Below are positions 40,015 through 59,222 of a stretch of DNA of 64,000 nt, piece after piece. A program made the translations under genes and the position numbers. The notes beneath the pieces were generated by a model that saw only the letters and a list, made by a program, of their open reading frames with translations, had not been told where the DNA came from and did no database searches. The stretch is from a virus. The DNA lies in IMG/VR virus record IMGVR_UViG_3300001679_000053, positions 38,519 through 102,518 of that record, one strand, 5' to 3'. Numbering within the stretch: the first letter of the stretch is position 1; each line of letters starts with the position of its first letter.

Positions 40015-41805
40015 TTAGCTAGTAGCGCCGGCTTCGCCGAGCATACCGCGCACAACAACAAGTCCATACATATCAGGACGAACCATCTTCTTCGCGTAAC
40101 GAGTCATCACGCCCTTGCGAGGCACGAAGTCTTCCGGTCCGAAGATCGTAGGTGTGGTCTGCAGTGGAACGTACGGTGCGTACACGTATCCGCTTTCAAG
40201 GAAAGAGGAACCGCGACGGCCGATGAGGACCACATTGCGGAGGAAGTACGGGTCAACAATGACATCGAACTTCTTGCTCAAGGAACCAACCTTGACTGAA
40301 CCAATACTACCCTTATCGTCGTCAGCAGTGACGGAAGCACGGAATCCAGCGGTGAACTCAAGGACGTTAGCAACTTCAGGTCCGCAGACAACAAAGTTAG
40401 CTCCGCCGCGAAGAGTCTTGCGGTGAATCTGTGCAGACACATCATTGATGGTCTCAACGAGAGTCTCGTACCACTCGGATACTGTACCGGTGAAGTCGGG
40501 AGCCGCAGAAGCAGCACCGATCTCAACGCCAGTAACCTTGTTCAAGAACAAGCCAGGTGAACGCGACCAGTAGTAGGTAGCAGCGGAAGCGCCATTAACA
40601 AGGTCACCAATGATCTCGCGATCAATCTCAAGAGCAATCTGCTCAGAGAGGATACTTGTAAGCTCAACCTCGGCATCAAGGTTGTGGTAGGCGTTAAGGT
40701 CTTGACCTAACTCCGGAGTCCACTTAGCCTTGAGCTTCTTGGTACTAGCGGTGACAGCCACGGAATCGACTTTGATGTCAATCTCGGGGATATCAGCGTT
40801 GTTCTCAAGTCCCCACTCGGCAGCACCAACGACAGCACCAATGGCGCTAGCAGCGTTGAAGTTGTCACGAATTGGAACCTGAACCGTGGTACCAGCCAAT
40901 GAAATGGTAGTAGACGCAGAAACTGCGATAGAAACCAGACGGACAGCAGAACCAGTGGCGGTATTAGCCTCAGTCGAGTCAACAAGCTGAGTTAAGCGAC
41001 GAATTTGACGCCATCCAGCAACACCCATGGCAACAGCAGTGTTCGCGGGGCTAACCGTAAACGCACCAAGGTTGTCGAAATCAGCATCTTGCTGAACATA
41101 ACTTGTCTTATCAGTATCCCAAACACAAACTTTGTAGTTTGTGCCTGAACCCGACAGGGCAAGAATATCAGGGTCGAAAACAATGAGCTTCTTCTGAGCC
41201 TCAGTTGCTGAATTAACAGCAAACTGAGCCTTGATGACACCAGTGTTTGCGTGTGCAGCACAAGCGACGGAACCGGTTGGGGAACCATAGGCATAACCGC
41301 GAGCAGAAACGGTACGAGGACCAGAAAGGTCAATACCAGAACTACTGAGCAGGTTAAGTCCGCCGGTCAACTGTGAACCAACCTTGTCACCACCATAGAT
41401 GGAGCCAGTGCCAGCAACGTTGCCGAAGCGACGGGTTTGTGCACCCTCGGTACCACCGAGATCTCCTGAGAACGTGAAGTCCAGGAAGAAGATGAGACCG
41501 CTTGGCAGACTCATCGGCTGAACACTAACAAGATCGTTAGCGATCAGACCCGCGAAGACACGGCGAACGATGGGGAATGCGACGGCAGCAAAGCCCTCAA
41601 CATCTCCAGCGGCCATGGAAGAACCCTCACGGAGAAGCTCTTTTGCTTGATTTTCAAGCAAACGAGCCATAGCTTGGCGGGATCGATCCTTTTCTATTCC
41701 TTCGAGTAGACCAGTCTTCTCCCACTTACTTAATAGTGCGTGCCCTTCTGCACGCATATCTCTGTTGACCATACCTTCGGTCAACCTTTCAACAATACCA
41801 GACAT
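40015..41805 (-). CDS. Major capsid protein (gp23-like)
   Basis: 596 residues. The N-terminus resembles a T4-type propeptide followed by FPIVRRVFAGLIANDLVSVQPM (residues about 78-99), the signature block of gp23 capsid proteins (T4 has VRRAIPNLIAFDICGVQPM), then PSGLIFFLDF. Later blocks include LKAKWTPELGQDL and ALEIDREIIGDL, also typical of the gp23 HK97 fold. It is likely to be cleaved by the gp21-like protease near residue 60. AGGAGG precedes the ATG. Between the conserved halves there is a Thr/Val-rich insertion. It is co-transcribed with the scaffold gene upstream and ended by a strong terminator. Confidence 0.95.
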   Translation of the reverse strand: MSGIVERLTEGMVNRDMRAEGHALLSKWEKTGLLEGIEKDRSRQAMARLLENQAKELLREGSSMAAGDVEGFAAVAFPIVRRVFAGLIANDLVSVQPMSLPSGLIFFLDFTFSGDLGGTEGAQTRRFGNVAGTGSIYGGDKVGSQLTGGLNLLSSSGIDLSGPRTVSARGYAYGSPTGSVACAAHANTGVIKAQFAVNSATEAQKKLIVFDPDILALSGSGTNYKVCVWDTDKTSYVQQDADFDNLGAFTVSPANTAVAMGVAGWRQIRRLTQLVDSTEANTATGSAVRLVSIAVSASTTISLAGTTVQVPIRDNFNAASAIGAVVGAAEWGLENNADIPEIDIKVDSVAVTASTKKLKAKWTPELGQDLNAYHNLDAEVELTSILSEQIALEIDREIIGDLVNGASAATYYWSRSPGLFLNKVTGVEIGAASAAPDFTGTVSEWYETLVETINDVSAQIHRKTLRGGANFVVCGPEVANVLEFTAGFRASVTADDDKGSIGSVKVGSLSKKFDVIVDPYFLRNVVLIGRRGSSFLESGYVYAPYVPLQTTPTIFGPEDFVPRKGVMTRYAKKMVRPDMYGLVVVRGMLGEAGATS

Positions 41806-41832: not shown

Positions 41833-43062
41833 TTATTTTATTCCAGCTAATCTTTTCATCCGTTCTTGTAATGGATCGGATGAAGGCGTCTCTTTACGAG
41901 AAGCCCTGATTGTAGAAGACCGGCGACTGATTACTTCGCTAAGTGATTGTGGGCTACGTTTTGGTGTGGCCACCACTGTGCTTTGAAGTGTTTCAAAGAT
42001 CGTCCTTGCTTCTGGGGCTGAACCGGCGTTGGAAATCGCTTCGACAATTTTATCTTTTTGTCGCTCATTTAAGGAGGTATTTCGTAAAATACGGTTCGTA
42101 TAAAGCAAACGAGCATTTGAAAGATTTACGTCATGAAGACCTTCTTTCAATTCTTGCACCGCTAGCTTATATTGTGTGTTTTGCTCATTGAGTTGTTTAT
42201 TTTCGAAAACCAACTCTTCTTGAGCTTTCTTTAAAGTTTCTAAATCGTCTTGTAGATCGGTGCTGCGGCGGTGGGCGATTTCTTTTTCCATCTCCCACTT
42301 CATGCTCTCGGATGAGCGGCCGGCCCAGCCCGATAGGGTAGCTCCCATGTCTACAGTAAGTTTTTCTATGATGGCATCAGTAAGGGAGTCAATATCGAAC
42401 TTCTCTTCCAAGCCTTTTTGTGCAGCATCGGTGGCTGCAATACCTGAAGCTGACGCCGTTTCCGCTTCGGCACTAGATGAACCTTCGTCATCTTCATCAT
42501 CGTCGTCGTCGTCGGTGTCGCCTGACTCTTGTGTGTCAAATAGGTTATCTTCTGGCGCGCTGAGGCCGGCTACTTCGACAATCTCGTCGTCCTCGTCCTC
42601 GTCATCGGCGCAATCATCGCCCTCTTCCGAAAGTATGTTTGCAATATCGTCGGCTGTGATGTCAAACTCTTGGTTCTCATTTATTTCATCACCTAACGCA
42701 GCAACAGCCTCTTGGAGAGCGCCTAAATCAATAGTAACGTCTATTTGCTCGCCTTGGTGGGGGAAGTCTTTTAAATTTTTGCCCTCTAAGTCCGAAAAAT
42801 CATCCGTGGCGGCCAGAGGGATCTCATTATCCTCATCAATTGTGTCTTCGGTTCCAGGCTCGGCAGGTTCGGTACCAAGATCAGGCATTTCACCACCCAG
42901 ATCAGGCATTTCGCCACCCAGATCGTCTTGCTCCAACAAATTATCCAAAGTTTCTTTAACTTCTTGCGAGTATTTTTCAATAACCGCAGTTTCGGCGTTC
43001 TTTAAGGCTGCTTCGCGCAGTGCCTTGGCGTCGATGATTGCTTCACTGAGCAAAGTAGACAT
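41833..43062 (-). CDS. Prohead core scaffolding protein (gp22-like)
   Basis: 409 residues from the ATG at 43062 (AGGAG upstream; an earlier in-frame start at 43092 is unlikely). Very acidic centre (Asp/Glu runs at about 140-200, with a duplicated GGEMPDL unit near 57-70), long charged coiled coil (270-340), and a helical C-terminal block (LLYTNRILRNTSLNERQKDK). These are features of T4-like prohead scaffolds, which are cleaved to peptides after assembly. The C-terminus LQERMKRLAGIK resembles the end of the WW-domain protein. It sits directly before the capsid gene. Confidence 0.8.
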   Translation of the reverse strand: MSTLLSEAIIDAKALREAALKNAETAVIEKYSQEVKETLDNLLEQDDLGGEMPDLGGEMPDLGTEPAEPGTEDTIDEDNEIPLAATDDFSDLEGKNLKDFPHQGEQIDVTIDLGALQEAVAALGDEINENQEFDITADDIANILSEEGDDCADDEDEDDEIVEVAGLSAPEDNLFDTQESGDTDDDDDDEDDEGSSSAEAETASASGIAATDAAQKGLEEKFDIDSLTDAIIEKLTVDMGATLSGWAGRSSESMKWEMEKEIAHRRSTDLQDDLETLKKAQEELVFENKQLNEQNTQYKLAVQELKEGLHDVNLSNARLLYTNRILRNTSLNERQKDKIVEAISNAGSAPEARTIFETLQSTVVATPKRSPQSLSEVISRRSSTIRASRKETPSSDPLQERMKRLAGIK

Positions 43063-43095
43063 GAATTGACTCCTAATATGACAATAGTTCACAAA

Positions 43096-45752: not shown

Positions 45753-46880
45753 TCACGTTCCTTTAGCTCCTATTATCCACCAGTTCTCTCCATCGGACTG
45801 CAAGCTGCGGGATGCATAATTAGTTTTTAGAATAATTTCATCTTTACTATCAATTGTGCCCTCCACTGCTCTTATCCGAATGGGATAGGAACGAAGATTT
45901 TCTGTGTCTGTGTTGGCTTTTTTTATATTTAAGACGCGGCCTACACTATTACACGCCGGTGGTAACGTAATAGTTATAGACGTTGCAACGGTGTCACACA
46001 CCAGGGTGTAATCTGTAGGACTTACTTCGTAGGATTTTAAGGAGACTTTTGATATATTTTTGATTACTTTACCAGTGCACTTCAGTTCCCCTTCAATAAG
46101 GGCTGCTGTGGCTATTACTTTACCTTCAACCTTCAAAGCCTCTTTGGTAGTACAGTAGGACAGCTTAGGAGAAGAGGAAAAGCCACGCTTGCCTTTAAGT
46201 TGAATTTCAGAGATGGCGCCGGCGGGGTGAGGTATCTTGTTGCTCATATAATTGTCATATAGATTCGAGAGTGTGGTGTGCCAGATGCCAGCGCGGTCAG
46301 CATCCCCAACCAAGATGACGTCTTGATCGCTCAGATTCTGCCCACCAGTAGTAATGGATGGTGATTTATTGGTATCCAGAATTAATTTATTATCTTTAAC
46401 ACTTATACCACTATTAACGCCCAAGTTGATACTAAGTCCCTCCTCGTCGTTTTGAAGAGCGCCATCAACTTTCGGCTGGAGGGATCCCCCTACCACATGC
46501 AGACCGGGGCCCAGCTTTAAATGGTCTCCGGAGATTAACCCGTTGAAATTATCCGATGGTATATCTGTAAGTTCTGCTCCTGAGCCGCTATAGCTTTCAG
46601 CACAAACATGTTTAGCGTTTAATGAGTTTCCATCATAAGTCAGTGTGTGATAAACTTTTGCTGTGTTGTCGCCGTTAAGGGTCAACACACCATTTTTCGT
46701 GGCGCCGATAACTGTAGTTATGGCAACATCTTTGAGGGTAGCACACGGGCTTTGCGCGTCGGTATCATAAAATACGCTAGCGCTTATGGTATTTTTAAAA
46801 ACCTTTATGCCGTCGATTTCTTGATCTGCGTGTTGGTCGACTGACCCCTCTACCGTACCCTTTAGAACATTATAAGCCAT
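45753..46880 (-). CDS. Fibre-like paralogue (MAYN family)
   Basis: 375 residues beginning MAYNVLKGTVEG. It has beta modules (TKNGVLTLNGDNTAKVYHTLTYDG...) related to its neighbours and ends DGENWWIIGAKGT, the recurrent closing signature (D/S-G-x-x-W/Y-x-hydrophobic). AGGGGGAG lies before the ATG. It is a virion fibre or decoration protein by family resemblance. Confidence 0.7.
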   Translation of the reverse strand: MAYNVLKGTVEGSVDQHADQEIDGIKVFKNTISASVFYDTDAQSPCATLKDVAITTVIGATKNGVLTLNGDNTAKVYHTLTYDGNSLNAKHVCAESYSGSGAELTDIPSDNFNGLISGDHLKLGPGLHVVGGSLQPKVDGALQNDEEGLSINLGVNSGISVKDNKLILDTNKSPSITTGGQNLSDQDVILVGDADRAGIWHTTLSNLYDNYMSNKIPHPAGAISEIQLKGKRGFSSSPKLSYCTTKEALKVEGKVIATAALIEGELKCTGKVIKNISKVSLKSYEVSPTDYTLVCDTVATSITITLPPACNSVGRVLNIKKANTDTENLRSYPIRIRAVEGTIDSKDEIILKTNYASRSLQSDGENWWIIGAKGT

Positions 46881-46892
46881 TTGTGCTCCCCC

Positions 46893-47120
46893 TTACCGTG
46901 AAATGCGTGTCTTATCTATAACTATGAGACTGCCAAAGTTAGTATAGTTTTCCGGATAATAAGTAAAGTTATGTTGTGTTAGTGTCTCTGTCACTATTGC
47001 TTTCATTGTACTTGAATTACCTGTTATAATTCTCATTGGCCCATCGTTTAAAAGAACAAAATTCTCTACATTCCTTTGTACCGCCTCGTGATACATCCCA
47101 TGCAGATCTAATGTTTTCAT
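46893..47120 (-). CDS. Small Smr-domain protein
   Basis: 75 residues from the ATG at 47120, chosen because it has GGAG upstream and follows a terminator and late box; longer in-frame starts run through these. It begins MKTLDLHGMYHEAVQRNVEN, the LDLHG motif of Smr domains, and has a PMRIITGNSSTMKAIV segment, matching the IxxGxGxxS loop. Smr domains nick or bind DNA or RNA; in bacteria a lone Smr (SmrB) rescues collided ribosomes. The family's role in a phage late region is unknown. Confidence 0.7.
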   Translation of the reverse strand: MKTLDLHGMYHEAVQRNVENFVLLNDGPMRIITGNSSTMKAIVTETLTQHNFTYYPENYTNFGSLIVIDKTRISR

Positions 47121-47135
47121 TGTAGTCTCCGCAAG

Positions 47136-47143
47136 TAAATAGT
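47136..47143 (-). promoter_or_regulatory. ACTATTTA box between terminator and Smr gene
   Basis: Minus strand GACTATTTAC, 16 bases before the Smr ATG and four bases after the T-run of the terminator at 47147-47180. Confidence 0.5.
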
Positions 47144-47146
47144 CAC

Positions 47147-47180
47147 AAAAAAAAGGATGCCCCCCAAAAGAGGGACATCC
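47147..47180 (-). terminator. Rho-independent terminator after the 453-residue fibre-like gene
   Basis: Minus strand GGATGTCCCTC, loop TTTT, GGGGGGCATCC, then eight T. Strong and correctly oriented. Confidence 0.9.
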
Positions 47181-47218
47181 AGTAAATAAAGGCAATCTTG
47201 TAAAGACGAATAATCGAC

Positions 47219-48580
47219 TTATGTGATTAACCACTTGTCGGAACCGACATAGGTGAACGATACACCAGCATTCGGGGAAGCTAAGACCACGGTGTCTTGA
47301 CCATCAATGGTTTGAGAGCCAGCTTTCGAAACAGTGAGCGCATAGGTGTGGGCGTTTGTAGGCGCCTTAACCGTGATAACATCACCAGCGTCCGGAGAAG
47401 CAGGAAGCGTCCAAATGCGAGCAGCTGAGAATACAGCTGAACTCCAGTTCATACCTTCCACAAGGGTAGCCGCAGCATCACCGTGAGAGGTAGGAGTCGG
47501 AGAAGCGTCCGAAGAGAAAACTCCGTTGGTAGCGGTAATACCGGCACCAGCCATCGCAGTCGCAAGTTGAGCAAAGGTGTTTCTCTGAGAGCTATTGTCC
47601 GTCGCGTCGAGCCAAACGAAACTGTCGGCCGAAACGGCAAGAGTTGCAGCAGTCGGAAGTTCATTCACATCCAATGCCAAGACACCAGAAGCTGCAGACA
47701 GACCAACACCACCTAAGCCAGTAGCAACGTCGTCATTGATCATTGCATCAGTAACTTTGGTTGCACCGATTGAGATGACACCAGCGTTTAAAGTGGCGTC
47801 ACCACTCATTGCGACATATGCCGTATCAGTACCATCAGATTGAAGGAACGTGCTAGCAGCACCTTTTGCAAGAGCAGAAGGATTACCAGAAGCGTCACCA
47901 ATGATGATGGAAGCTCTAGTGAGAGCAGCCATCTTGGCAAGAGAAACAGCATCATCAGCAAGTTTTGCAGTTGTAACTGCGAGGTTGCCAATAGTTAACG
48001 CACCGCCAGAAGCGAGCGTAGCATCACCAGACAGAGCGACTTCTTCGTAGTCACTGCCGTCAGCGACAAGTAACTTGCCGGAAGTAACGTCAGGCATAAC
48101 GAAAGTAGTAGCCGTCAAAGTGGTTGCTGTAACAGCAGCCGGTGTTCCACCACCGATTGCGCCAGGGACAGCCATTGTGGCGCCACCAAGCGTAGAAGCG
48201 TTAAGGTTAGCGACAACAGTAGTTGAAGCCACCGTGAACGGTGCAGTGCCAGTTGCTTGATCCGACTCGAAAGTCAGGGCGCGCATCTCGTAAGCACCAA
48301 TGTCAAGGTTAGCAGTTGCCGTTAAGGCATCCACCGTAGCAGTGGTAAAAGTACCAGCCGCCTTGGTTTCGCCACCGATGACACAGTTATCTAACTCGCC
48401 GCCGGAAATGTAAGCAGATCCGGGATCAGCGTCTGTACCAAGCTGATCGATGTATGCGATACCGTCGATGTAGATATCTTTCCATTGCGCTGCAGCGATA
48501 CCAAGATCGAATGCATCGTCGTTTTGAGGAGAAATAGCACCACTAAGGATAGCTAACTCCGATTGAAATTTATAAGCCAT
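47219..48580 (-). CDS. Fibre-like paralogue (MAYK family)
   Basis: 453 residues beginning MAYKFQSELAILSGAISPQND. A repeated beta pattern (GDATLASGGALTIG, GDATLNAGVISIG; KMAALTRASIIIGD) fills the body, and the end (GVSFTYVGSDKWLIT) is the shared closing signature of this protein group. Probable trimeric fibre or head decoration subunit. It has its own terminator (47147-47180) downstream. Confidence 0.7.
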   Translation of the reverse strand: MAYKFQSELAILSGAISPQNDDAFDLGIAAAQWKDIYIDGIAYIDQLGTDADPGSAYISGGELDNCVIGGETKAAGTFTTATVDALTATANLDIGAYEMRALTFESDQATGTAPFTVASTTVVANLNASTLGGATMAVPGAIGGGTPAAVTATTLTATTFVMPDVTSGKLLVADGSDYEEVALSGDATLASGGALTIGNLAVTTAKLADDAVSLAKMAALTRASIIIGDASGNPSALAKGAASTFLQSDGTDTAYVAMSGDATLNAGVISIGATKVTDAMINDDVATGLGGVGLSAASGVLALDVNELPTAATLAVSADSFVWLDATDNSSQRNTFAQLATAMAGAGITATNGVFSSDASPTPTSHGDAAATLVEGMNWSSAVFSAARIWTLPASPDAGDVITVKAPTNAHTYALTVSKAGSQTIDGQDTVVLASPNAGVSFTYVGSDKWLIT

Positions 48581-48626
48581 GTTTAAAAACCCTCCATATT
48601 ATATAAGTTTTATGTTTTGGCGGATA

Positions 48627-48664
48627 GCAAAAAAGGTACGCGCTCCCATAAATGAGAACACGCA
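48627..48664 (-). terminator. Probable rho-independent terminator
   Basis: Minus strand GCGTGTTCTC, loop ATTTAT, GGGAGCGCGT (ten pairs including G-U wobbles), then ACCTTTTTT. It lies between two fibre-like genes; the 48581-48712 gap otherwise holds the box at 48685-48692. Confidence 0.6.
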
Positions 48665-48684
48665 ACAGTCCCGCCATCCGCTTA

Positions 48685-48692
48685 TAAATAGG
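48685..48692 (-). promoter_or_regulatory. CCTATTTA box, weak match to late element
   Basis: Minus strand CCTATTTATAAG, upstream of the terminator at 48627-48664. It differs from the others at the first base, and a transcript starting here would meet the terminator before the next gene. Confidence 0.25.
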
Positions 48693-48712
48693 CTCTTCGT
48701 CCTTCTTTCGCG

Positions 48713-49462
48713 TCAATAAATAAAGTATTTGGTGGCGCCATCACAATATAGCTGGAGTGCTGCATAAGGTGACCCTAAAACAACTGTATTTTGACCATCA
48801 ATTTTATCGGCGCCAGAGCCGGAAATGGTGATTGCGTTGGTGTCTGAGTTGCCACCTTCGTCTTTCAAAACCAGAGTTTGTCCGCTAGTGAGAGCAGCTG
48901 CATTTGGGAGAGTAATTTTTACTGTTCCGCCGGTTGTATCTACACCTATGTAATAGTCTGTTATGGAGATGGTATAATCGCCTGTGACTGTGTGGCGCTT
49001 ATGAATTAATGCTCCACTTAAAAAACTACCGCCCACTACTGATAAAGTGGCTGGCGCTGTGCCGGAGGCGCCCACCTTTATACTACTCGTAGTGTAAGCA
49101 TTGCTAGGGGAAGTTTCTCTGAAGATGCCGGCGCCGGTGGCTCCACCGGGAAGATTTGTTAAACGGCTGCCGTCCCCTTCAAAATAAGATGCGGACACGG
49201 ACACGGACGCGGTGAGATCGCCGGTAACGACCAGGGACCCTCCATCGAATGTTAAATTCGACTCACAGACAAGGGTGTTTGCATCGCCGCTCACATTGGT
49301 TATAAGTGCGTTATTTGTCGCATTGGAAACCCGCGGAATATTGATTAAATTAGCACCATCTGAAGTGCTCAAATTACCGGAAACTATATTTCCTACAACT
49401 AAATCGCCAGGAATATAGTTCTGCGCAGCTATTAACGTTCCAGATACTGCATTATACGCCAT
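48713..49462 (-). CDS. Fibre-like paralogue (MAYN family)
   Basis: 249 residues beginning MAYNAVSGTLIAAQNYIPGD. Beta-rich; the C-terminal 90 residues (VTGDYTISITDYYIGVDTT, then IDGQNTVVLGSPYAALQLY, ending CDGATKYFIY) match the module that closes the neighbouring fibre proteins. A GAGGGA site precedes the ATG. Confidence 0.7.
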   Translation of the reverse strand: MAYNAVSGTLIAAQNYIPGDLVVGNIVSGNLSTSDGANLINIPRVSNATNNALITNVSGDANTLVCESNLTFDGGSLVVTGDLTASVSVSASYFEGDGSRLTNLPGGATGAGIFRETSPSNAYTTSSIKVGASGTAPATLSVVGGSFLSGALIHKRHTVTGDYTISITDYYIGVDTTGGTVKITLPNAAALTSGQTLVLKDEGGNSDTNAITISGSGADKIDGQNTVVLGSPYAALQLYCDGATKYFIY

Positions 49463-49482
49463 CTGTAGGATCCCTCACATAA

Positions 49483-49537
49483 TTAGTTTTATAAAGCCTC
49501 TAAGCTAATATTAGTTTTATAAAGTCTCTAAGCTAAT
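49483..49537. repeat. Tandem direct repeat of 27 bp in the gap between paralogues
   Basis: Two copies (49483-49509 and 49511-49537) differing at one base (AAAGCCTC vs AAAGTCTC). The second copy reaches the stop codon of the fibre-like gene at 49537. Confidence 0.9.
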
Positions 49538-50187
49538 TAGAAGACAAACCAATTGGTGCCGTTAGAATATAAACTAATTGCAGGCATTGACCCAGTTAAA
49601 GTGTAGGAGTTGGCGCCATCGATAGTCGTACCATACGCAGCCGAAAGAATAATATTAGTTCCAGCGCGAGAAGTAGCTTCGTCTTTTACAATTAAAAGCG
49701 CTCCGCCGAGATAAGTAGAAGCGCTTGGAATCTCAATACGAACATTGTTTACGTTGGTGACGCCCATTATGTAACTCGGGGCGCTAGCAGTATAGCTGAC
49801 TGTGGAAACCGCTTCGTAAAGACCACGAAACCCTCTCACCTGTACAGCTTCAGTAGTATTATCGACGCGCAGAATAAGCGTATCGTCAGATTTGCCAACC
49901 TGCAGACTTCCTGTCCTAATATGGACATCGTCATTGGTATCCCCAAAGAATGTGGAGCCGCTAGCATCGATCTCGGTCACATTCTTGATATGGTAGTGAC
50001 TGGCACTGATGGTGCCTGAGACGTTGAGTGTTCCCGTTAGATGAAGGGTGTTCGTTCCTGTTGTGAACATAAATCGAGCGGAGCCGCTCGTCGCGTTAGT
50101 TCCTGTTAGAAACTGCACCGATCCTATTGGGCCGGCCATCGACGTGGAGCCCGAACAATCTACATATGCCCAACGAAATCGTGCCAC
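49537..50187 (-). CDS. Fibre-like paralogue with terminal beta module
   Basis: 216 residues from GTG 50187, chosen because AGGGG lies ten bases upstream and the GTG follows the previous gene's TAA; a TTG at 50217 would overlap that gene. Sequence: VARFRWAYVDCSGS, then SAYFM-like beta strands, with the closing module (VSYTASAPSYIMGVTNVNN, IDGANSYTLTGSMPAISLYS) ending GTNWFVF. Same module as the neighbouring fibre proteins. Confidence 0.65.
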   Translation of the reverse strand: MARFRWAYVDCSGSTSMAGPIGSVQFLTGTNATSGSARFMFTTGTNTLHLTGTLNVSGTISASHYHIKNVTEIDASGSTFFGDTNDDVHIRTGSLQVGKSDDTLILRVDNTTEAVQVRGFRGLYEAVSTVSYTASAPSYIMGVTNVNNVRIEIPSASTYLGGALLIVKDEATSRAGTNIILSAAYGTTIDGANSYTLTGSMPAISLYSNGTNWFVF

Positions 50188-50189
50188 TA

Positions 50190-50630
50190 TTAACCGACCC
50201 CTATGGAGCCCGACCAACTAGGTCCAAGTGAACCACTTGTTTTGTTCTTGTTGATGCTGGTGAGTCCCGCGACAACTTGAACACTTGTAGCTTGTGCGGG
50301 TGAATAAAGCCAAATTTCCGAAACCTTCAGTTCAAGCCGGCCGCTACTTGTTTGTCCACCATTAGTTGCGTCCGCTTTAGGAATTGTAAAAAAGTAGCTA
50401 TTTGAAACGTGGCTTCCGCTCACTCCGTTTTCTGAAAACCCCACTCGTACGGGCTGTGCGCTAGTGTTTATAATCTGCACCCAGCGTGTAACAAGCGGAA
50501 ACTCTACCTTTTGTGCGGTAGATGCGTTAATGTTGCCACTAGCGAATGGGCGGCCGCTTACCTCATAGGCACCCACATGATTGATACCTACTTCTGCTGG
50601 CCAGCGCATTGTGGGACTATTATTTGCCAT
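50190..50630 (-). CDS. Beta-rich virion protein (head/tail decoration, putative)
   Basis: 146 residues with no enzyme motif: predominantly beta (RWVQIINTSAQPVRVGFS, SYFFTIPKADATN, LELKVSEIWLYS). Its C-terminus is Ser/Gly-rich. It starts the fibre-like run and has an AAAGGAG site and a late box. Likely a small decoration or fibre-attachment protein, by context. Confidence 0.6.
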   Translation of the reverse strand: MANNSPTMRWPAEVGINHVGAYEVSGRPFASGNINASTAQKVEFPLVTRWVQIINTSAQPVRVGFSENGVSGSHVSNSYFFTIPKADATNGGQTSSGRLELKVSEIWLYSPAQATSVQVVAGLTSINKNKTSGSLGPSWSGSIGVG

Positions 50631-50673: not shown

Positions 50674-50907
50674 CTATTTTTTTCTATTGCGTCTTTGTTG
50701 TAGTCTTAGATGTTTTTGTTCATCTCGGATCCGGCGGCGTTCTGCTTTTTGGCGCTTTTGGCGCTTAGCATCAGATGGCTTGGTATACCTTCTACGTTCC
50801 TTCACCTCTTCAACAATCTTCTCTTTCTTTGTCTTCTTGATAAATCTCTTGATCATTCTCTCATGATTTCCACGGCATTCTTTTGCGCGGACAACAACAT
50901 TAGCCAT
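50674..50907 (-). CDS. rpsU: Ribosomal protein bS21
   Basis: 77 residues from the ATG at 50907 (AGGAA upstream). The translation (MANVVVRAKECRGNHERMIK...) follows the bS21 pattern: an N-terminal strand, an ERMIKRFIKK helix, then VEEVKERRRYTKPSDAKRQK, matching the bacterial block (EVRRREFYEKPxxxRKR), and an all-basic C-terminal helix. bS21 sits near the anti-Shine-Dalgarno end of 16S rRNA and helps initiation; a phage copy could replace the host protein and bias ribosomes to phage messages. Phage-encoded bS21 is known from marine and large phages. It lies in the late region, between a head-type gene and the fibre array. Confidence 0.88.
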   Translation of the reverse strand: MANVVVRAKECRGNHERMIKRFIKKTKKEKIVEEVKERRRYTKPSDAKRQKRQKAERRRIRDEQKHLRLQQRRNRKK

Positions 50908-50912
50908 TATTC

Positions 50913-51332
50913 CTACTTCATTGCGTTCCACACATGTGAAGCGCCTCCTACTAGTGAACTAATGTCAACACCCGCATCCCGGGAGCTTCCTAGATCGACT
51001 GAGCCGGCTGCTGTGCCAGCGTTTTCTTCTCTGGACATAGGCGCTGTGCCTTCAAATAAATCCATCCCATTGTATGCATCTTTGCCAATGGAGTCCATTA
51101 ACTCTTGACGGCGAGCATTCATCTTTTGGCGCGACTCTTTCATCTTGCGAGCCTCTGCAGCGCGATTTGGTGGTGTCGGGGTGGCGGCACGTGACTCCAC
51201 TAGTGGCTTTGCTTGCATGCCTTGAACTACTTCGGATACAATGTTCGATAACATTCCTTCCTCTATAAGAACTTCATGTATGCATTCTTTTACTAGTGGT
51301 TTGATTAGTTGTTTTAAATCTGATTTTTTCAT
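50913..51332 (-). CDS. Unknown protein with N-terminal LKQLI tag
   Basis: 139 residues. The N-terminus MKKSDLKQLIKPLVKECI resembles the tags of the proteins at 60456, 62190 and 62381. The middle is basic and helical (ARKMKESRQKMNARRQELM); the end is Gly/Ser-rich and probably disordered. Perhaps a head-packaged protein. No family recognised. Confidence 0.55.
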   Translation of the reverse strand: MKKSDLKQLIKPLVKECIHEVLIEEGMLSNIVSEVVQGMQAKPLVESRAATPTPPNRAAEARKMKESRQKMNARRQELMDSIGKDAYNGMDLFEGTAPMSREENAGTAAGSVDLGSSRDAGVDISSLVGGASHVWNAMK

Positions 51333-52885
51333 AATACTCTCTTGTTAATTCCTGCGATCGTTTGCCAACGATCATATGTTTCTTGAAGTGGTCCCGTGGG
51401 TCCCCGGTTTTGTGTACCGATTCGGGGAGTTGTTCGGGTCGCGCGCGGGCGGCTAGCCAGTTCGGAAGGCGCGGCGGAGCCGGGCTCAGGGGAATCCGCT
51501 GGATCCGTGGGGGGTGGCGCGCCAAGATCATTACGCACCCATGCAACGGCCGCCTTGAGCGCTTCCACACCTGCTTTAATTGTAGGAGATGGCGCATGTT
51601 CAAGCACCTCCAAAACAACATCTATATAGTTCTTCCCGTCGTCATTCTTGGCGTAGACAGCGGTGCGGATATATTCTTCGGGAACGTGTTCATAGAGTTC
51701 CTTCACACCGTTAACGGCTTTACCAGCTTTGAGAGCTTTGAATCCCTTGTCCCCGACTGCCATGGCTTTTGTGGCGGTAGCAAGTGCTTTTCCTGTTTTC
51801 CCAGTGGTTGCAACAGTTTTAGCTATCTTGCCTAGCCTTCCAAGTTTAGCAAATTTACCGACCACCGGAACTAAGGCAATTAAATCCAACATAGCCCAAC
51901 CTATTTTCTTCTGGTATAGATTTAAACCCAGGCTGGCAAGCGTAGCAGCAGACGGTATGAGGGTTGCTTCTGCGCCAGGGAACAGACCGGCGGCGCCGAC
52001 TATGTCCAATGTCGATCCCATTATCGCTAATGCTTTTTCCTTCATGGGGGATTCTTCATCTTCTTCCTCGGCTTCATCGGCAGGTGTGTCGGGCTCCTCT
52101 TCTCCGGTTTGTCCTGGGAGATTCCAAGTTGGTTGCTCAGTATCTTTGTTCCAATAAAAGGGTGTGCCGTCGGCGGATGCCCACTCTTCCCAGGTATCAT
52201 TCAGATGTCCCACAAAGGTCTCGCCGTTTGGACCGGTCAAGTACACCGGTTCTGGCTCAGGGCCAGGTCCGAGGGCATCGCCACCAATAGTGGTCGACTC
52301 TTCATCGGGAGGCTCGTCGGAGGTGGCGGTGGCACCCTGTGATACGTCATCACGGGGATCAGTGGTGTTGACAACCGAAGTGGCGGCTACAGGAGGAGCA
52401 GTAAACTTAACTGAATTAACGCGGCCCCAATAGTTTAAAGCTTTTATAAGAGCGGTGTTCTCTGCATCTGGGAGATTCCAGCCGGCTATTGTCTTCAGTA
52501 TCAGTGCTGTTCCTGCTGAGTCAATGATGCGATCCTGTTCGCTATTTAGTCCCTTTAAGCTTAATTCTAGCATGATGCCTTCATCACCGGCAATCTGAGC
52601 TATCACATCAATTAATGCTTGGATGTATTCCGGGTCTAAGGGGGGAGTAAGCCGGCCAAGAACCTGTTTCAAGGAATCCCGCTTGTATTCAGAGTTTAGA
52701 CCGGTGCTCACGTCTGGGTAATCGCTAGCTTGTGGGTCTTCTTCGGGTTCCTCCCAGTGATCTTCAGTATCATAGCCACTATCTCTCAGCCTCTGTGCGA
52801 GCGCGCTGGTCTCCTCAGACAAAAAGTTACGCCAATTTTCGTGGAGCAATTGCTGTCCTTCAAAGCTTGACCAGCTTTTAGTCAT
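51329..52885 (-). CDS. WW-domain protein with hydrophobic helical region
   Basis: 518 residues from the ATG at 52885 (GAGG upstream, overlap of eight bases with the protease gene). After LLHENWRNFLSEE (13-25) and a helical domain (80-160), a low-complexity Pro/Glu linker leads to a WW domain: W232, D239-G240, F243-Y244, N246, T249, W254 and P257, the exact W-x21-W-x2-P spacing. Residues about 285-390 are hydrophobic and Gly/Ala-rich (AMLDLIALVPVVGKFAKLG), resembling membrane-active or pretoxin-type segments. The Pro-rich C-terminus ends WQTIAGINKRVL. It lies between prohead protease and scaffold genes, so it may be head-packaged. WW domains bind Pro-rich ligands and are rare outside eukaryotes. 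Confidence 0.7.
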   Translation of the reverse strand: MTKSWSSFEGQQLLHENWRNFLSEETSALAQRLRDSGYDTEDHWEEPEEDPQASDYPDVSTGLNSEYKRDSLKQVLGRLTPPLDPEYIQALIDVIAQIAGDEGIMLELSLKGLNSEQDRIIDSAGTALILKTIAGWNLPDAENTALIKALNYWGRVNSVKFTAPPVAATSVVNTTDPRDDVSQGATATSDEPPDEESTTIGGDALGPGPEPEPVYLTGPNGETFVGHLNDTWEEWASADGTPFYWNKDTEQPTWNLPGQTGEEEPDTPADEAEEEDEESPMKEKALAIMGSTLDIVGAAGLFPGAEATLIPSAATLASLGLNLYQKKIGWAMLDLIALVPVVGKFAKLGRLGKIAKTVATTGKTGKALATATKAMAVGDKGFKALKAGKAVNGVKELYEHVPEEYIRTAVYAKNDDGKNYIDVVLEVLEHAPSPTIKAGVEALKAAVAWVRNDLGAPPPTDPADSPEPGSAAPSELASRPRATRTTPRIGTQNRGPTGPLQETYDRWQTIAGINKRVL

Positions 52886-53486
52886 TGTCCAACACCTCAT
52901 TTAGCAGTCTGTTAATTTTATCTGCTTTGGTGAGGATATTAGTGGGCTGTAAATCTTTTGCCTCCTTCATCATGAAGGCGTTCGGGGTAGATGGCTCGGA
53001 TACAAAGTCAAAACAAATCAATTGGAAGTCATCTTCTACGATGGTCTGCCCTTGTTGCTCAGTCACGGAGCCCATGCCTCGCGAGGAGATCCCTAGTTTA
53101 ACACCCGACTCTACTAAGGAGCGAAGAATGCCACCAGAAGGTGTGTTAAGTACTTTTACTTTGCCCATAACATTTTTGTTATCCCACCAAACTTCAGTAA
53201 TAAGGTGAGATGCATTTTTCAAATTGATCACTGAATCATCGGGATGGTCTAATTCACCAAGGGCGCGCTGTTCGTTTACCAGTTTGGTATAATTCTTCAT
53301 CTCGCGCATTAAAATTTTATGCGGATAAACTCTTCCGTTTCCATTTTGAACATCTGCCTCTTGAAGTTTGCCGCTTAAAATCATGCCTCCGTCGGCGACA
53401 TATCGTTTTTCGGCCTCGTTCAAAAGATCCTGACAGACGCCGCCTTCGCATAGCTCATAATACTCTCTTAAAAGTTTCTGACCCAT
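52878..53486 (-). CDS. Prohead core protease (gp21-like)
   Basis: 202 residues. The phage prohead protease fold is evident: NGNGRVYPHKIL (48-59), GELDHPD with catalytic His81, INLKNASHLI (87-96), and the nucleophile motif GISSRGMGS (132-140, Ser134/135). It matures the capsid by cleaving scaffold and capsid precursors; substrates are probably the gp22-like and gp23-like proteins. The order protease, scaffold, capsid is conserved with T4, with the WW-domain gene and the fibre block inserted between. Confidence 0.9.
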   Translation of the reverse strand: MGQKLLREYYELCEGGVCQDLLNEAEKRYVADGGMILSGKLQEADVQNGNGRVYPHKILMREMKNYTKLVNEQRALGELDHPDDSVINLKNASHLITEVWWDNKNVMGKVKVLNTPSGGILRSLVESGVKLGISSRGMGSVTEQQGQTIVEDDFQLICFDFVSEPSTPNAFMMKEAKDLQPTNILTKADKINRLLNEVLDND

Positions 53487-53531: not shown

Positions 53532-53840
53532 TTATTTGTCCAAATGTTTGTGTTCATATTTAACTCCGTGGTCTCCAAAGACCATATTTAAAATGTAAGA
53601 TGTTCCTGACGACACCCATCCAAGTAGGAAAAAGTTAACGACGGAAACGTCATAGCTAAATAGTTCCGTAAAGGGAGAAAGTAGCATTAAAAACCAACCT
53701 ACATGAAATCCCATGCACATCGGACATTTAAAAAGCTTTCCTAGCCTTCCTTTGGCGGGCCTTATTCTATCGAATATTGTACCATATACAATGATTTGTG
53801 TTAAGCCGTAAGCGCACAGTATGAATGTTAGTAATTCCAT
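53532..53840 (-). CDS. Small membrane protein (DUF1360-like)
   Basis: 102 residues with three hydrophobic stretches (about 2-20, 46-62, 66-84) and the motif CPMCMGFHVGW (39-49), reminiscent of the CPxCxGFWVG motif of DUF1360 phage membrane proteins. The function of that family is not established. The ATG overlaps the previous stop (TAATG). Confidence 0.65.
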   Translation of the reverse strand: MELLTFILCAYGLTQIIVYGTIFDRIRPAKGRLGKLFKCPMCMGFHVGWFLMLLSPFTELFSYDVSVVNFFLLGWVSSGTSYILNMVFGDHGVKYEHKHLDK

Positions 53841-54298
53841 TATTTTTTAACCGCGTGCTGGTTAAACTTGCTACCTAAAAATGCTTGCAGTTCATCATCC
53901 ACTACCGGTATAGGATCTGTGGGTTGAGCACTCTCTAATGAGGCAATCAAATCATTTAAAAATGCGGTCTCAACATTATCATCAACAATAGCCGATATAT
54001 CATCGTTCACATTTAACAAGTCCAGCCCCGTGTTGCTCTTAAACCCATCATCTGCTCCATATAATTTTTTCATAATATCGCGGGCGTCTTTGGCGCCCTG
54101 CCATAAAGAATAAATATTGCTTATGCCCGGGACTTGCTGGATAGCTACATCCGCGGCCATCTTTCCTGCTTCTTTACCTGCTTCTTTGGCTCTGTAAATT
54201 TTTATGGCTTTTCTCAGGTCACCGACTGTCGTAATCTTAGTTTCTTCGGTAACAACAAACTTGTCCCAGTTTTCCATTATAACTTTCATTTCGGACAT
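53840..54298 (-). CDS. Unknown protein with N-terminal ENW motif
   Basis: 152 residues. MSEMKVIMENWDKFVVTEE at the start shares the ENW-x2-F element with the WW-domain protein. A short helical basic part (KAIKIYRAKEAGKEAGK), an Ala/Val hydrophobic segment and a C-terminal LDLLNVNDDISAIVDDNVE helix follow. A head-region neighbour of the portal and protease; function unknown. AGGAG precedes the ATG. Confidence 0.55.
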   Translation of the reverse strand: MSEMKVIMENWDKFVVTEETKITTVGDLRKAIKIYRAKEAGKEAGKMAADVAIQQVPGISNIYSLWQGAKDARDIMKKLYGADDGFKSNTGLDLLNVNDDISAIVDDNVETAFLNDLIASLESAQPTDPIPVVDDELQAFLGSKFNQHAVKK

Positions 54299-54847: not shown

Positions 54848-55664
54848 CAGTAGACATCTCCTTTGCTAGTTTTTGGGTTTTTAGGATAGTCGTGAGCATC
54901 TTTTCGTTCATTCCCGCTTGGGCATATGAATCAAGTATGGTCAAAACCTGCTTGCTTTTCTCCACCATATCAGGATCTTCCTTAACATATTTACTCTGGC
55001 GTGCTGCAGCCATGATATCTTTCAGGCGTGAGATCTCTTCATTTAAAAACGTTTTTAACCCCAGCGCATTGTCAGAAAAAGAAGCGATGTAATGAGCTAA
55101 AAGTTCTTTTTGCTCGTCTAACAGTTCTCCTTCATATTTGTCATTAAACTTCTTAACAAAAGTTCTATAAACAACATTGTCTATTTGTTCTGCAATCTGT
55201 GATGGGTCTCTCTTTTCTCGCATCTCTGCAATCACCTGATTCTCTAAAATGACGCGCTGTTTTGGTGTGGTCGTATCAGAGAAGATTTGTGCTATAGTCG
55301 CAAGAGTCTTGTAATTGGGAACGAAGTTCTTAAAAATAGAAGGAGAGAGAGATTTATTTACCTCATGGATAAGTGCGGTCTGTGCCGCAAATAATTCCTG
55401 TGTAGGAATTAGCGCTCGTTGGCGCTTGCACTCTTTTAAAATCTTTTGGTGTGTCTCGGTATCTAGATCCTGATTTTCATACAATGAACGATAACACTCT
55501 AGTTCTTTCTTTAAAGAAGTGTTGACAGAAAAATGTTTCTTGACAATCTCTATAATTGTCTTTTGAGTCTTGGCGTCACCTCTGAGAATAGCTACTGTAT
55601 TTTCTCGAATGAGTGCCTCATATACAAATGCGGTGTTACGCTTTTTGTTGTGTCTTATCTTCAT
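54831..55664 (-). CDS. Helical portal-adjacent protein of unknown function
   Basis: 277 residues, almost wholly helical and charged, starting MKIRHNKKRNTAFVYEALIR. The first basic residues followed by a long helix suggest binding to DNA or another head protein. I cannot assign it; position immediately after the portal gene (overlap 29 bases) fits a scaffold-type or internal head protein. Confidence 0.55.
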   Translation of the reverse strand: MKIRHNKKRNTAFVYEALIRENTVAILRGDAKTQKTIIEIVKKHFSVNTSLKKELECYRSLYENQDLDTETHQKILKECKRQRALIPTQELFAAQTALIHEVNKSLSPSIFKNFVPNYKTLATIAQIFSDTTTPKQRVILENQVIAEMREKRDPSQIAEQIDNVVYRTFVKKFNDKYEGELLDEQKELLAHYIASFSDNALGLKTFLNEEISRLKDIMAAARQSKYVKEDPDMVEKSKQVLTILDSYAQAGMNEKMLTTILKTQKLAKEMSTDGHNN

Positions 55665-57627
55665 CTTCTTTCTCCGTTAAAGTTTTGTTACTAGCATCCA
55701 AATCATTCAAAAGGTTTCGGACGGACTCGTTGATTTGGAAAACCTTATCCTCCTCATCCATCTCTCGCTGTTTATAAGTAGAGTGGTCGTATTCATTAAT
55801 ACCTATTCCAATACCAGAGCCATTTTTCAAAGTGCTGATGTCTGTAAGTCCGGGCACTATATTGCGTAGCGTATTGCTACTCTTCTCCTTAGCGTACTTG
55901 GATGCAATAGAGCGAGTTCGGGCGCCAGCATCGCGTCGATCGACCTTTTTGGGATGGTATACCTTTCCTTTAGCACCGGGCGTTAATCGTGGTGCGTTAC
56001 GGGAGCCGGGGGGTACTGCTAGGAGCGCGGACTCATCGCCGCCGCCTTCATCCGCTCCGGCATCACCGGCTGGCATTTCTTCTGGTCCGGCGAGGTCACC
56101 GCCTAAGTCACCGCCTAAGTCGCCGCCAAGGTCGCCACCTAGATCTCCGCCTAGACCACCACCAGCTTCGCCGGCGGCTGCAGCTTCTGCAACCGCTTGG
56201 AGAGCAGCATCGTGTTCTCTATCATAATACATTTCGCGCTGGTTCCGTGTGAACTCTTCATTAGACATCGCAAAAACGTGTTCAGCAACCCAGCGCCGTG
56301 AGAAAAATCCTTCGGTAGCTGAGCCAGCGATATCAAACTTCGTCTTCCAGTGCTCAAGCTCTTGAAGCTCTGCGATTTTGGATGGGTTGTTAAGGCTCAG
56401 ATCAAATCCCAACAGGTCGTCGCCGCGGAATCCGAGGGTATACAGGTGTATGATACTGATCTTAGTTAACTCAGCGATGATAACACGCTGCAACCGCTGT
56501 ACGGTGCGCGAGAAACGAATGTCTTTCTGGGCCAACGTTGTCTTGTCTTCTGCCGCGCCCTCGCCCATTGAAAGATAAGCTTGAGGAATTTTGAGAGCAG
56601 AGAACAGCTTGTCGCGAAGGTATTTGATATCATCAATTTGAGTAATGTTTTGTGCTCCTGCGAGGCTTTCGATTGTTGTCGCAGAGCCGGGTCGAACTGG
56701 TAGAAAGTAGTCTTCTTCAATAGACATGGGGTTATATCGTAAATCAACACGGCCAGTCTTATTATCAATAACAGAGTGGCGCTTGAGGTTCGACACAACC
56801 TTTTGCATGTATTGTTCCACATCCTGTGGGGGGATGGCTCCCACGTCAATCTTAAAGACTCGCCGCTCAGAAGAACGCACCACACGATAAGCCATCATGG
56901 CGTCCTCCATAAGAGTGAGTTGGCGCCAGATGCGGCGGGCGGGCTCAAGGATTGAGGTTCCATAGGGAGCGTACTTATCATTTCCAAGAATTCTAAAGTG
57001 TGCCACCTGCCAGTTTTCGAAGGTCATGCCGCCTGAGTTCCACTGGTATTGAACGTAATTTGGGTTTGTGGAGTCTAAGCCTTCGAGCCTTTCGATCTCA
57101 TTCGACGGAAGGGCAATAACAGATTGGACACCATATTTTTCATCAATGTCCAGATAAAGAAAGAAGTCCCCGTATTTGCACATGGTGCGGGCCCAACCAA
57201 AAAGATTGTATTTAAGGTTAAGGATGTTATCAAATAAAATAGCTAGGACAGCTTTAATCTCTTCATTCGGGCACTTGATCTTTAACATCGGACGCAAATC
57301 CGAATAGGTAGTCATCTCGTCGGCATATATGTCCATTGAGGACGCAATCTCTGGTGTGTATTCCATCTGATCAAAGTCCACATAGCGCTCTGCGCGTGCT
57401 TGATTTTGCATCGCGTTGGTAGCAATGATATCTAAAGGGTTATACAGTGTCTTCTTAAACTGCTGACCAGAAGCCGTCTGGAAGCGTGAAGAGAACTTAT
57501 CCAAATGTTGGCGTCGGATTCTTCTTCCCGACTGAGATCTGTAACTAATGATCGGTCCGGAGAATAATCTCGTTAAAGCTTTGAATAAGCTATTTTGTTT
57601 ATTTGCTGGGTTGTTGTCTAAGGGCAT
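55636..57627 (-). CDS. Portal protein (gp20-like)
   Basis: 663 residues. Typical gp20 features: the N-terminal MPLDNNPANKQNS, the core strand/helix blocks RAERYVDFDQMEYTPEIASS, MYADE-type stem (IYADEMTTYSD), CKYGDFFLYLDID, and the VYSSERRVFKIDVG-type clip segment (VVRSSERRVFKIDVG). The C-terminal 200 residues carry a repeated GGDL unit (about 490-510) and a Pro/Glu/Ala linker, then a second helical segment. The portal is the DNA gate of the head and the nucleus of prohead assembly. It follows terminase with an eight-base gap. Confidence 0.9.
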   Translation of the reverse strand: MPLDNNPANKQNSLFKALTRLFSGPIISYRSQSGRRIRRQHLDKFSSRFQTASGQQFKKTLYNPLDIIATNAMQNQARAERYVDFDQMEYTPEIASSMDIYADEMTTYSDLRPMLKIKCPNEEIKAVLAILFDNILNLKYNLFGWARTMCKYGDFFLYLDIDEKYGVQSVIALPSNEIERLEGLDSTNPNYVQYQWNSGGMTFENWQVAHFRILGNDKYAPYGTSILEPARRIWRQLTLMEDAMMAYRVVRSSERRVFKIDVGAIPPQDVEQYMQKVVSNLKRHSVIDNKTGRVDLRYNPMSIEEDYFLPVRPGSATTIESLAGAQNITQIDDIKYLRDKLFSALKIPQAYLSMGEGAAEDKTTLAQKDIRFSRTVQRLQRVIIAELTKISIIHLYTLGFRGDDLLGFDLSLNNPSKIAELQELEHWKTKFDIAGSATEGFFSRRWVAEHVFAMSNEEFTRNQREMYYDREHDAALQAVAEAAAAGEAGGGLGGDLGGDLGGDLGGDLGGDLAGPEEMPAGDAGADEGGGDESALLAVPPGSRNAPRLTPGAKGKVYHPKKVDRRDAGARTRSIASKYAKEKSSNTLRNIVPGLTDISTLKNGSGIGIGINEYDHSTYKQREMDEEDKVFQINESVRNLLNDLDASNKTLTEKEDEDKTQQKA
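56085..56165 (-). repeat. GGDL tandem repeat in portal protein
   Basis: Five consecutive GGDL units coded by 12 bp repeats, giving a flexible Gly/Asp linker. Codon usage differs between units. Confidence 0.8.
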
Positions 57628-57635
57628 TTATTTTC

Positions 57636-59222
57636 TCACTTTATAATCCATTTATATTGACTATATAAATCTTCTGCTTGATTCATTTTATCAAAGATGC
57701 TATCTTTTTTATAGCCATCTTGTCCTTTAATTTGAGTATTCATACTAGTTTTTGTGGTATATATCGCATCCACAAAGGCTTTTTGATAGTTTAACTCTCT
57801 AGCATTTGACTGTAAGGCCGTGTCTCTGACCCAACACGCAATCGCTAAAGCCATGATAAGGTCATCATGGTAGCCTTTCATTGCTTGCGGCTTACCGTTC
57901 CTCCAAATAAAAGTTTTCATTTCGTTAAGAGTACGAGATGAATATACCTTAATTAGTTTGTTTCTGATGAATTCTTCTAGTTTTGCAACAATCAATGGGC
58001 GCGTTTTCATTGTTGTGGAGAATCCGGGGACTGCGCTGTTTATAACTTCTGCTTGATACTGCTCTATATATTCGTGCGTAGATTTAACTGAATGATAAAC
58101 ATTCGGGTATCGATGATCATTGATGAGCTTATCCAAAACTGAATACCCAATATTGTTGTTTTCCACTACAAGCATGCAATTACCAAATTCTCTTCCCACT
58201 TGGTTCAGCAAGTTAGCATACATATCTAATGTTGGTTTTCCTTGGTATTCTCCCACTATTTCTAGCGTCTCAAGCTTGACAATGTGAAAAGTTGAAAAGT
58301 CGGCGCCGTCGCCGCGGGCCACATCAGCAACCATTAAATAATTGCACGTAGGATCAAATTCCTCCCAGATCCAGAAGTTACGGTCAAATCCGGTTCGGTA
58401 CTTCGGCTCTTTTATGTTAGAGGCTAACCATTCCATACACCCTGAATCTATAACTGTCTCGCCGGATGTGTTGAAGTTGCATGCTAACTCTTGTGCAATT
58501 TGTCGTTTAGACATATTTCTGGTTTCTTTATCATACCAAATTTTATCTCTATCCGGGTGGACGTCCCACGCTAACGTGGTTAGGTTAAAATTGTTAGCAC
58601 CAGCTTCCGCGTCGACGCAAGCTTTGTGGAACCAGTTACCGACACCGTTCGGAGTAGAGAGCGCGATGCATCGACCACCCGTTGACAGCGTGGGATATAA
58701 GCCAGTCCATAATTCTTCGAGCCCTTCAATATGTGCGGCCTCGTCGAGTACTAAGAGAGACAATGCTTCAGAACGACCAGCATCACCAGATGTGGATGTG
58801 GCTTTTATCGAAGAACCATTCGAAAGTTCAAAAGAGGTGCGGTTATCCACACTGATAGTGGCTATCTTCATCCAGTCGGGAAGGTTACGCATAATGTTCT
58901 TAACTTTTTTGACCAAGTTTCCAGCCGTTGCAAACTTAGTTGCCATAACCAAGATTGCTTTATCGCGATGGAATAGCATAAGCCAGACAACATACCCAGC
59001 CGTTATCGTGGAGATTCCAAGTTGGCGCGCTTTCAAGATAACGTTAAACCTATAATCATTAAAGTCTTTTAACAGTTCATCTTGAAAGTCATAGGTATCA
59101 AAAAGAATTAACCCATGCATCGGGTGAGATATTCTGGCATAGGTTTTAAGAAAATATGAGGGCTCTTTACCGCACTTTAATATTTCTTTGACTCTTTGCT
59201 TTTTGTCTAATTGGAAGCTCAT
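57636..59222 (-). CDS. Terminase large subunit (gp17-like)
   Basis: 528 residues. ATPase domain: Walker-A-like KARQLGIST (64-72), Walker B LLVLDEAAH (156-164), coupling motif near STPNG (about 200). Nuclease domain: VADVARGDGADFS (about 300) and later acidic residues (VVENNNIGYSV region and a YHDDLIMALAIA helix with Asp pair). It pumps and cuts DNA during headful packaging. The ATG overlaps the previous gene's stop (ATGA). No separate small terminase subunit was recognised; the acidic gene upstream is a candidate by position only. Confidence 0.92.
   Translation of the reverse strand: MSFQLDKKQRVKEILKCGKEPSYFLKTYARISHPMHGLILFDTYDFQDELLKDFNDYRFNVILKARQLGISTITAGYVVWLMLFHRDKAILVMATKFATAGNLVKKVKNIMRNLPDWMKIATISVDNRTSFELSNGSSIKATSTSGDAGRSEALSLLVLDEAAHIEGLEELWTGLYPTLSTGGRCIALSTPNGVGNWFHKACVDAEAGANNFNLTTLAWDVHPDRDKIWYDKETRNMSKRQIAQELACNFNTSGETVIDSGCMEWLASNIKEPKYRTGFDRNFWIWEEFDPTCNYLMVADVARGDGADFSTFHIVKLETLEIVGEYQGKPTLDMYANLLNQVGREFGNCMLVVENNNIGYSVLDKLINDHRYPNVYHSVKSTHEYIEQYQAEVINSAVPGFSTTMKTRPLIVAKLEEFIRNKLIKVYSSRTLNEMKTFIWRNGKPQAMKGYHDDLIMALAIACWVRDTALQSNARELNYQKAFVDAIYTTKTSMNTQIKGQDGYKKDSIFDKMNQAEDLYSQYKWIIK

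Follow-up and report, generated by a model that had tools for sequence, protein, structure and literature searches.

The window analyzed here is a stretch of 64,000 nucleotides, which is a part of a virus record of 102,518 bases. In this window, a gene encoding a protein of 518 amino acids (aa) sits in a T4-like head gene cluster, that is, a cluster with the genes of the terminase, the portal protein gp20 and the S77 prohead protease and, farther on, those of a gp22-like scaffold and the capsid protein gp23. These genes and the parts of the 518-aa protein are listed in Table 1. The original prediction had placed the gene between protease and scaffold genes. It does adjoin the gene of the S77 protease, but the conserved gene on its other side is no identified scaffold, and the gp22-like protein is encoded at a distance.

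Some other genes of this region were also observed. A gene for ribosomal protein bS21 (50674-50931, minus strand; Pfam Ribosomal_S21, E 5e-9) is located just past the slot described below, and Microcystis phage Mel-JY01 has a bS21 gene in the same neighbourhood (L246:16746-16973). A small membrane-like protein with weak similarity to DUF1360/PHROG 781 (53532-53840, minus strand) is kept beside the protease in most relatives. Between the slot and the scaffold gene there is a run of small fibre- or decoration-like proteins (45753-50630, minus strand), which start with MAYN or MAYK and end in similar IDGQNTVVLxSP motifs; they may be repeated genes of the virion surface.

Table 1. Positions in the window of the head genes and of the parts of the 518-aa protein.
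Feature	Position	Strand	Basis
518-aa slot-1 protein with WW domain, putative packaged internal/ejection protein	51329..52885	-	Open frame, GAGG 5' of ATG
N-terminal leader, residues 1-24, MTKSWSSFEGQQLLHENWRNFLSE, putative capsid-targeting propeptide with L-x-E protease motif at its end	52814..52885	-	Common to most slot-1 proteins
Helical domain mod1, residues 60-172	52370..52708	-	jackhmmer, AlphaFold
Exchangeable central cassette (linker, WW, linker, hydrophobic segment)	51373..52370	-	DNA homology break versus L086
Divergent WW domain, residues 230-257	52115..52198	-	Pfam WW, PDB WW sequences, shuffles
Hydrophobic/helical segment, residues 283-455, pretoxin-like by eye	51521..52039	-	Homologues in slot proteins
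C-terminal tail, residues 500-518, LQE then TYDRWQTIAGINKRVL, scaffold-like tag with putative protease site	51332..51388	-	Slot proteins and gp22-like scaffolds
Conserved gene of about 139 aa closing the slot on the 3' side	50913..51332	-	Alignment A1, 45-60% identity among relatives
S77 prohead protease (gp21-like), presumed processing enzyme	52878..53486	-	Peptidase_S77 E 3e-32; PHROG 207, head maturation protease
Second hypervariable cargo gene (slot 2), leader MSEMKVIMENWDKFVVTEE	53840..54298	-	Body unrelated in L166
gp22-like core scaffold, C terminus LQERMKRLAGIK matching the cargo tail	41833..43092	-	Directly upstream of gp23
Major capsid protein gp23	40015..41805	-	Pfam Gp23 E 1e-72
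Portal protein gp20	55636..57627	-	Pfam Portal_T4 E 1e-77
Terminase large subunit	57636..59222	-	PHROG 2 E 6e-51

Judged from the sequences, a cargo slot lies beside the S77 prohead protease gene, and the gene of the 518-aa protein is one of the states in which this slot occurs. We scanned loci of related viruses with the portal protein, the gene past the slot and the protease, and the scans contained 130 distinct protease ends. Among the 107 related viruses in which both flanking genes were present, the slot was empty in 29 and occupied by a gene in 78. The complete slot proteins (n = 76) ranged from 136 to 921 aa and could be sorted into 52 groups when a mutual coverage of 50% was required. 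That is, the part of the protein that would remain after processing is hypervariable and dispensable among the relatives.

The closest relative spanning the region, L086, shows how the content of the slot changes. The DNA around the cassette is 80-85% identical in the two viruses, but the match breaks off at 52371 and starts anew at 51372, and residues from about 172 to 504 are replaced by an unrelated sequence. L086 retains the leader, the helical domain and the tail, and has another middle in place of the WW domain and the hydrophobic segment. In the relative L166 (93-94% DNA identity around slot 2), the slot-2 protein retains its leader but has another body; in slot 1, the L166 contig ends soon after the leader. 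Throughout the relatives, the slot-2 leader SEMK(L/V)IMENWxxF(L/V)xxE is conserved and the bodies are variable. We also observed a third variable class between the DUF1360-like gene and the protease gene, with the leader MKITKxQLKQIIxEEL (for example L091:1454-1888 and L118:2175-2666). Two longer proteins of this class (L234:3884-4993 and L154:3331-4398) carry an RWxxIAGL tail at the end.

Within the 518-aa protein, jackhmmer found the helical domain mod1 in about 14 other slot proteins, and AlphaFold gave a pLDDT above 90 across most of this domain. No known fold was found for mod1, and the full model had no significant match in the PDB or in viral fold libraries. Pro/Glu-rich linkers flank the WW domain, as originally described. 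The region following them had been regarded as hydrophobic and similar to a membrane-active or pretoxin segment. A hydrophobic segment is present there, with homologues in the slot proteins of L149, L223, L135 and L018, but the profile of the pretoxin PT-TG (PF14449) did not match the protein at E values up to 10. The first half of the segment gave no confident structure model.

The WW domain is a peptide-binding module that is normally eukaryotic. Residues 232-257 of the protein (52115-52192, minus strand) read WEEWASADGTPFYWNKDTEQPTWNLP, and the full WW signature claimed for them is there exactly as described: W232 and W254 are spaced by 22, and between and after them are D239-G240, F243-Y244, N246, T249/T253 and P257. 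We take W232, Y244 and P257 to be core positions of the WW fold and F243 and W254 to be positions of the ligand groove; in the alignment all of them are occupied. The Pfam WW profile (PF00397), which had been proposed as a check, matched residues 230-257 with an E value of 0.0017 and 18.8 bits when the whole protein was searched, and with 23.2 bits and an E value of 1.1e-5 in a six-frame search of the record, both scores lying below the curated gathering cut-off of 26.9 bits. We therefore do not count the segment as a formal member of the Pfam family and call it a divergent WW domain.

When a query of 53 residues was compared by phmmer with PDB sequences, the matches were the WW domains of PRP40, FBP11 and TCERG1, with E values from 2e-7 to 1e-3 and gap-free alignments of 29-34 residues. 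Identity was 12/29 to WW1 of FBP11 (PRPF40A) and 11/29 to the WW domain of TCERG1/FBP28. Against a profile made from 15 known WW domains, the segment scored 23.8 bits, about 10 bits over the best of 20,000 shuffles (13.8 bits), which leads us to reject chance as the cause of the likeness. When this kind of profile scan was applied to all ORFs of 243 loci, the WW protein alone gave E < 1. An AlphaFold model made without an alignment placed strands at residues 232-236, 242-246 and 251-254, the expected places, at low confidence (pLDDT 61), and Foldseek returned many WW domains among its matches for this model, none of them significant. The segment shares the full signature with the WW domains of PRP40, FBP11 and TCERG1. 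It differs from them in belonging to a prokaryotic virus and in its score below the Pfam cut-off, as well as in having Phe at the groove position where Tyr is usual, and in a Trp after the aromatic pair. Taken comprehensively, these sequence comparisons confirm that the segment is a real, divergent WW domain.

WW domains had been said to be uncommon in phages, and our searches agree with this. The 518-aa protein matched no PHROG family and, by tblastn, nothing in 50,697 phage records; searching the phage records with a WW consensus also found nothing. A scan of viral contigs with the WW segment recovered an identical contig alone, and 40 related virus records had no WW domain besides one identical contig. 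No WW domain was found in 396 genomes from the phylum of a Flavobacteriaceae-titled metagenome-assembled genome (MAG) with a related protease, a search in which no control genome matched and which leaves absence unproven. Identical DNA (100%) occurs in two other sequence sets (L002, and L003 with the end of the gene only), and the protein is thus present in more than one assembly, yet belongs to one virus (three contigs). None of the other slot proteins has a WW domain, and this absence from every relative found is what the original prediction had named as evidence against itself. We attribute the absence to exchange of the cassette in a hypervariable slot, so that it does not count against the WW domain.

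We then considered the two ends of the protein. The leader of slot-1 proteins has the typical form SxWSSFExDKxxxDxWRxFLxE, and conservation stops there; in most slot proteins it terminates in the motif W-x-x-[FY]-L-x-E. Among 53 distinct leaders, the Trp was present in 51, an aromatic residue or His at +3 in all 53, Leu, Ile or Val at +4 in 47, and Glu at +6 in 41. The combination [LIV]xE at W+4 to W+6 was found in 39 of the 53 leaders, compared with a background of 1.4%. The pattern [WYF]xx[FYH][LIV]xE occurred in 68/110 of the leader set and 31/72 slot-2 N-termini, while the comparison sets gave 4 matches among 1151 other N-termini and 5 among 829 internal windows; part of this enrichment is built in, because some of the count sets were retrieved with the leader itself.

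This leader resembles the capsid-targeting sequence (CTS) of T4 internal proteins. The N-termini of T4 IPII and IPIII are MKTYQEFIAE|A. It has been reported that residues 4 and 7 of IPIII serve in targeting and residues 8 and 10 in processing, and that gp21 cleaves after L/I-x-E (PMC9026906). Position for position, Y4, F7, I8 and E10 of T4 correspond to W18, F21, L22 and E24 of the present protein, and a protease of the gp21 type is encoded in the adjacent gene. Like IPI, IPII and IPIII, which carry a CTS, the present protein thus combines a short leader (an aromatic residue, Phe/Tyr at +3, Leu/Ile at +4 and Glu at +6) and an S77/gp21 protease with hypervariable, dispensable mature parts. The differences are that the leader has about 24 residues here and 10-19 in T4, that the slot here lies between protease and capsid genes, and that the mature parts are larger and unrelated and are accompanied by an additional C-terminal tag. 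The same record, outside the window, encodes a 1191-aa protein (L085:5839-9411, minus strand) that starts with MDISTGNWFEYLREE in the same CTS-like pattern and has no family match; it is a further candidate for a packaged protein.

The additional tag is the tail R[WM]xx[LI]AGI, which about half of the slot proteins have in common. In the wider form [RK][WMLFH]xx[LIV][ASV][GN][ILV] it ends 41 of the 76 complete slot proteins. Elsewhere, when 3323 ORFs with a minimum length of 100 aa were considered, only 19 had it at their ends. These comprise scaffolds of the gp22-like type, incomplete slot proteins, and the two proteins of L234 and L154, which belong to a different tagged class encoded upstream of the protease. 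A motif [LIVM]xE was found within 16 residues upstream in 39 of 40 distinct tails, against a background of 16%. The two cultured phages, Flavobacterium phage immuto and Mel-JY01, also have this tail at the C-termini of their scaffolds (RWQKLAGIIK and RMKKLAGIVK), and the tail-bearing protein in both is the one upstream of the capsid gene.

In T4, Alt is trimmed at both ends, losing one propeptide at the N-terminus (ITE-6) and another at the C-terminus (LTE-619), and the role of the two has been stated as open (PMC5694885). Such a pair of propeptides with L/I-x-E sites, published for Alt, would be present here, too. In contrast to Alt, our protein has no ADP-ribosyltransferase domain. Moreover, the C-termini of T4 Alt and gp22, compared by eye, showed no resemblance, whereas cargo and scaffold tails match here. 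The shared tail therefore seems to belong to this lineage and not to be a general trait of T4-like phages, and as a C-terminal tag of both cargo and scaffold it appears to be new.

The order gp20/gp21/gp22/gp23 is the same here as in marine myoviruses of the Far-T4 type, immuto and Mel-JY01, and the portal protein is 38-40% identical to those of the two cultured phages; on the basis of gene order, tail and portal identity, the virus is a candidate Far-T4 phage. Both immuto and Mel-JY01 have other genes in the slot and lack a WW domain. By eye, the slot gene of Mel-JY01 (L246:16992-18158) resembles an ADP-ribosyltransferase (YRAVS, STTLNP, ESEIILP), a likeness that would make it a counterpart of T4 Alt; the Pfam and PDB sequence searches gave no support for this assignment. 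As for the host, the only contigs of genome collections with a related protease (L252 and L253) are both in MAGs labelled Flavobacteriaceae. Together with phage immuto, this gives a hint that part of the group may infect Bacteroidota, although misbinning is possible.

From these data we consider it likely that the protein is a non-essential, cleaved, packaged and probably ejected internal head protein with the WW domain in its exchangeable part. Its role would be comparable to that of the internal proteins and Alt of T4, in a T4-like marine phage. The protein would be made late together with the head genes. It would be recruited to the prohead core by the leader, in which W18 and F21 stand where T4 IPIII has Tyr4 and Phe7, and by the C-terminal tail, which either derives from the gp22-like scaffold or is common to both proteins. 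The S77 protease, whose gene lies immediately upstream, would then cut at LSE24 and probably at LQE502, yielding a mature body of about 478 residues, which may stay with the DNA and be ejected into the host. There the WW domain, of which the groove residues F243 and W254 are intact, could tether the protein to a proline-rich peptide of the host (or the phage), and the helical and hydrophobic parts could carry effector or membrane activity. The idea of packaging and delivery was already part of the original prediction, and the CTS-like leader, the scaffold-like tail, the adjacent protease and the hypervariability support it well. The proline-rich binding partner proposed with it did not emerge; the virus's own genome holds only scattered PPxY/PPLP-like strings, which are few and unconvincing, several of them in doubtful ORFs.

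Exchange of the central cassette among relatives would be expected under selection by host defence or host takeover. The injected T4 proteins IP1, IP2 and IP3 act against type IV restriction enzymes, each of them inhibiting a particular one (PMC12373910). By analogy, an anti-defence or takeover role of the ejected body is a reasonable guess, and nothing more.

Other explanations have to be weighed against this. The slot proteins might stay in the prohead as core-assembly factors like gp67 and gp68, the WW domain binding a Pro-rich part of the scaffold or of another core protein, and none of them being ejected. The tail in common with the gp22-like scaffold, the Pro/Glu-rich linkers of slot proteins and the location in the core gene cluster would agree with such a function. 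However, a slot that is often empty and bodies that are swapped between close relatives fit accessory cargo better, and the WW domain occurs in one virus only; we regard this explanation as unlikely. We give somewhat less credit still to a membrane-active ejection protein, in which, as the DNA enters, the hydrophobic segment would be part of a conduit through the inner membrane or of a lesion in it, with the WW domain serving only as a spacer or oligomerisation module. The segment is indeed conserved in four other slot proteins, but the majority of slot proteins do not have it, its first half lacks a confident model, and it has no similarity to known ejection proteins or to the pretoxin.

The likeness to WW domains might itself be convergent or accidental, that is, a Trp-rich linker that fits the signature and does not bind peptides. 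A score under the gathering cut-off, homologues in related viruses that all lack the domain, and a model of low confidence would agree with such a reading. The distance from the shuffled sequences, the significant matches to real WW domains in PDB and the complete set of core and groove residues oppose it, and we think it very unlikely.

Hypervariable internal proteins with a CTS are a known kind of protein in T4-like phages. What is new, as far as the searched libraries and the open-access literature reach, which is weak evidence, is a WW domain in an internal protein of the CTS type and the C-terminal tag of cargo and scaffold. Tentatively, and with somewhat less than even confidence, we suggest that a large marine T4-like group has a standardised cargo-loading system, in which an N-terminal capsid-targeting leader and a C-terminal tail of the scaffold kind frame hypervariable effector cassettes and the protease removes both, and that in one deep-sea virus such a cassette has gained a WW domain of the eukaryotic type, which addresses the ejected protein to a proline-rich target in the host.

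The scaffold-like tail offers a testable answer to the question why T4 Alt has two propeptides (PMC5694885), since the second may tether the cargo to the core. The paired tags also provide a sequence rule for finding packaged, probably ejected phage effectors in metagenomes, namely a protein framed by W-x-x-[FY]-L-x-E and R[WM]xx[LI]AGI. A WW domain in a bacterial virus, if true, would mean that a peptide reader of the eukaryotic type works in the conflict between phage and host, and it raises the question of which bacterial protein offers the proline-rich ligand.
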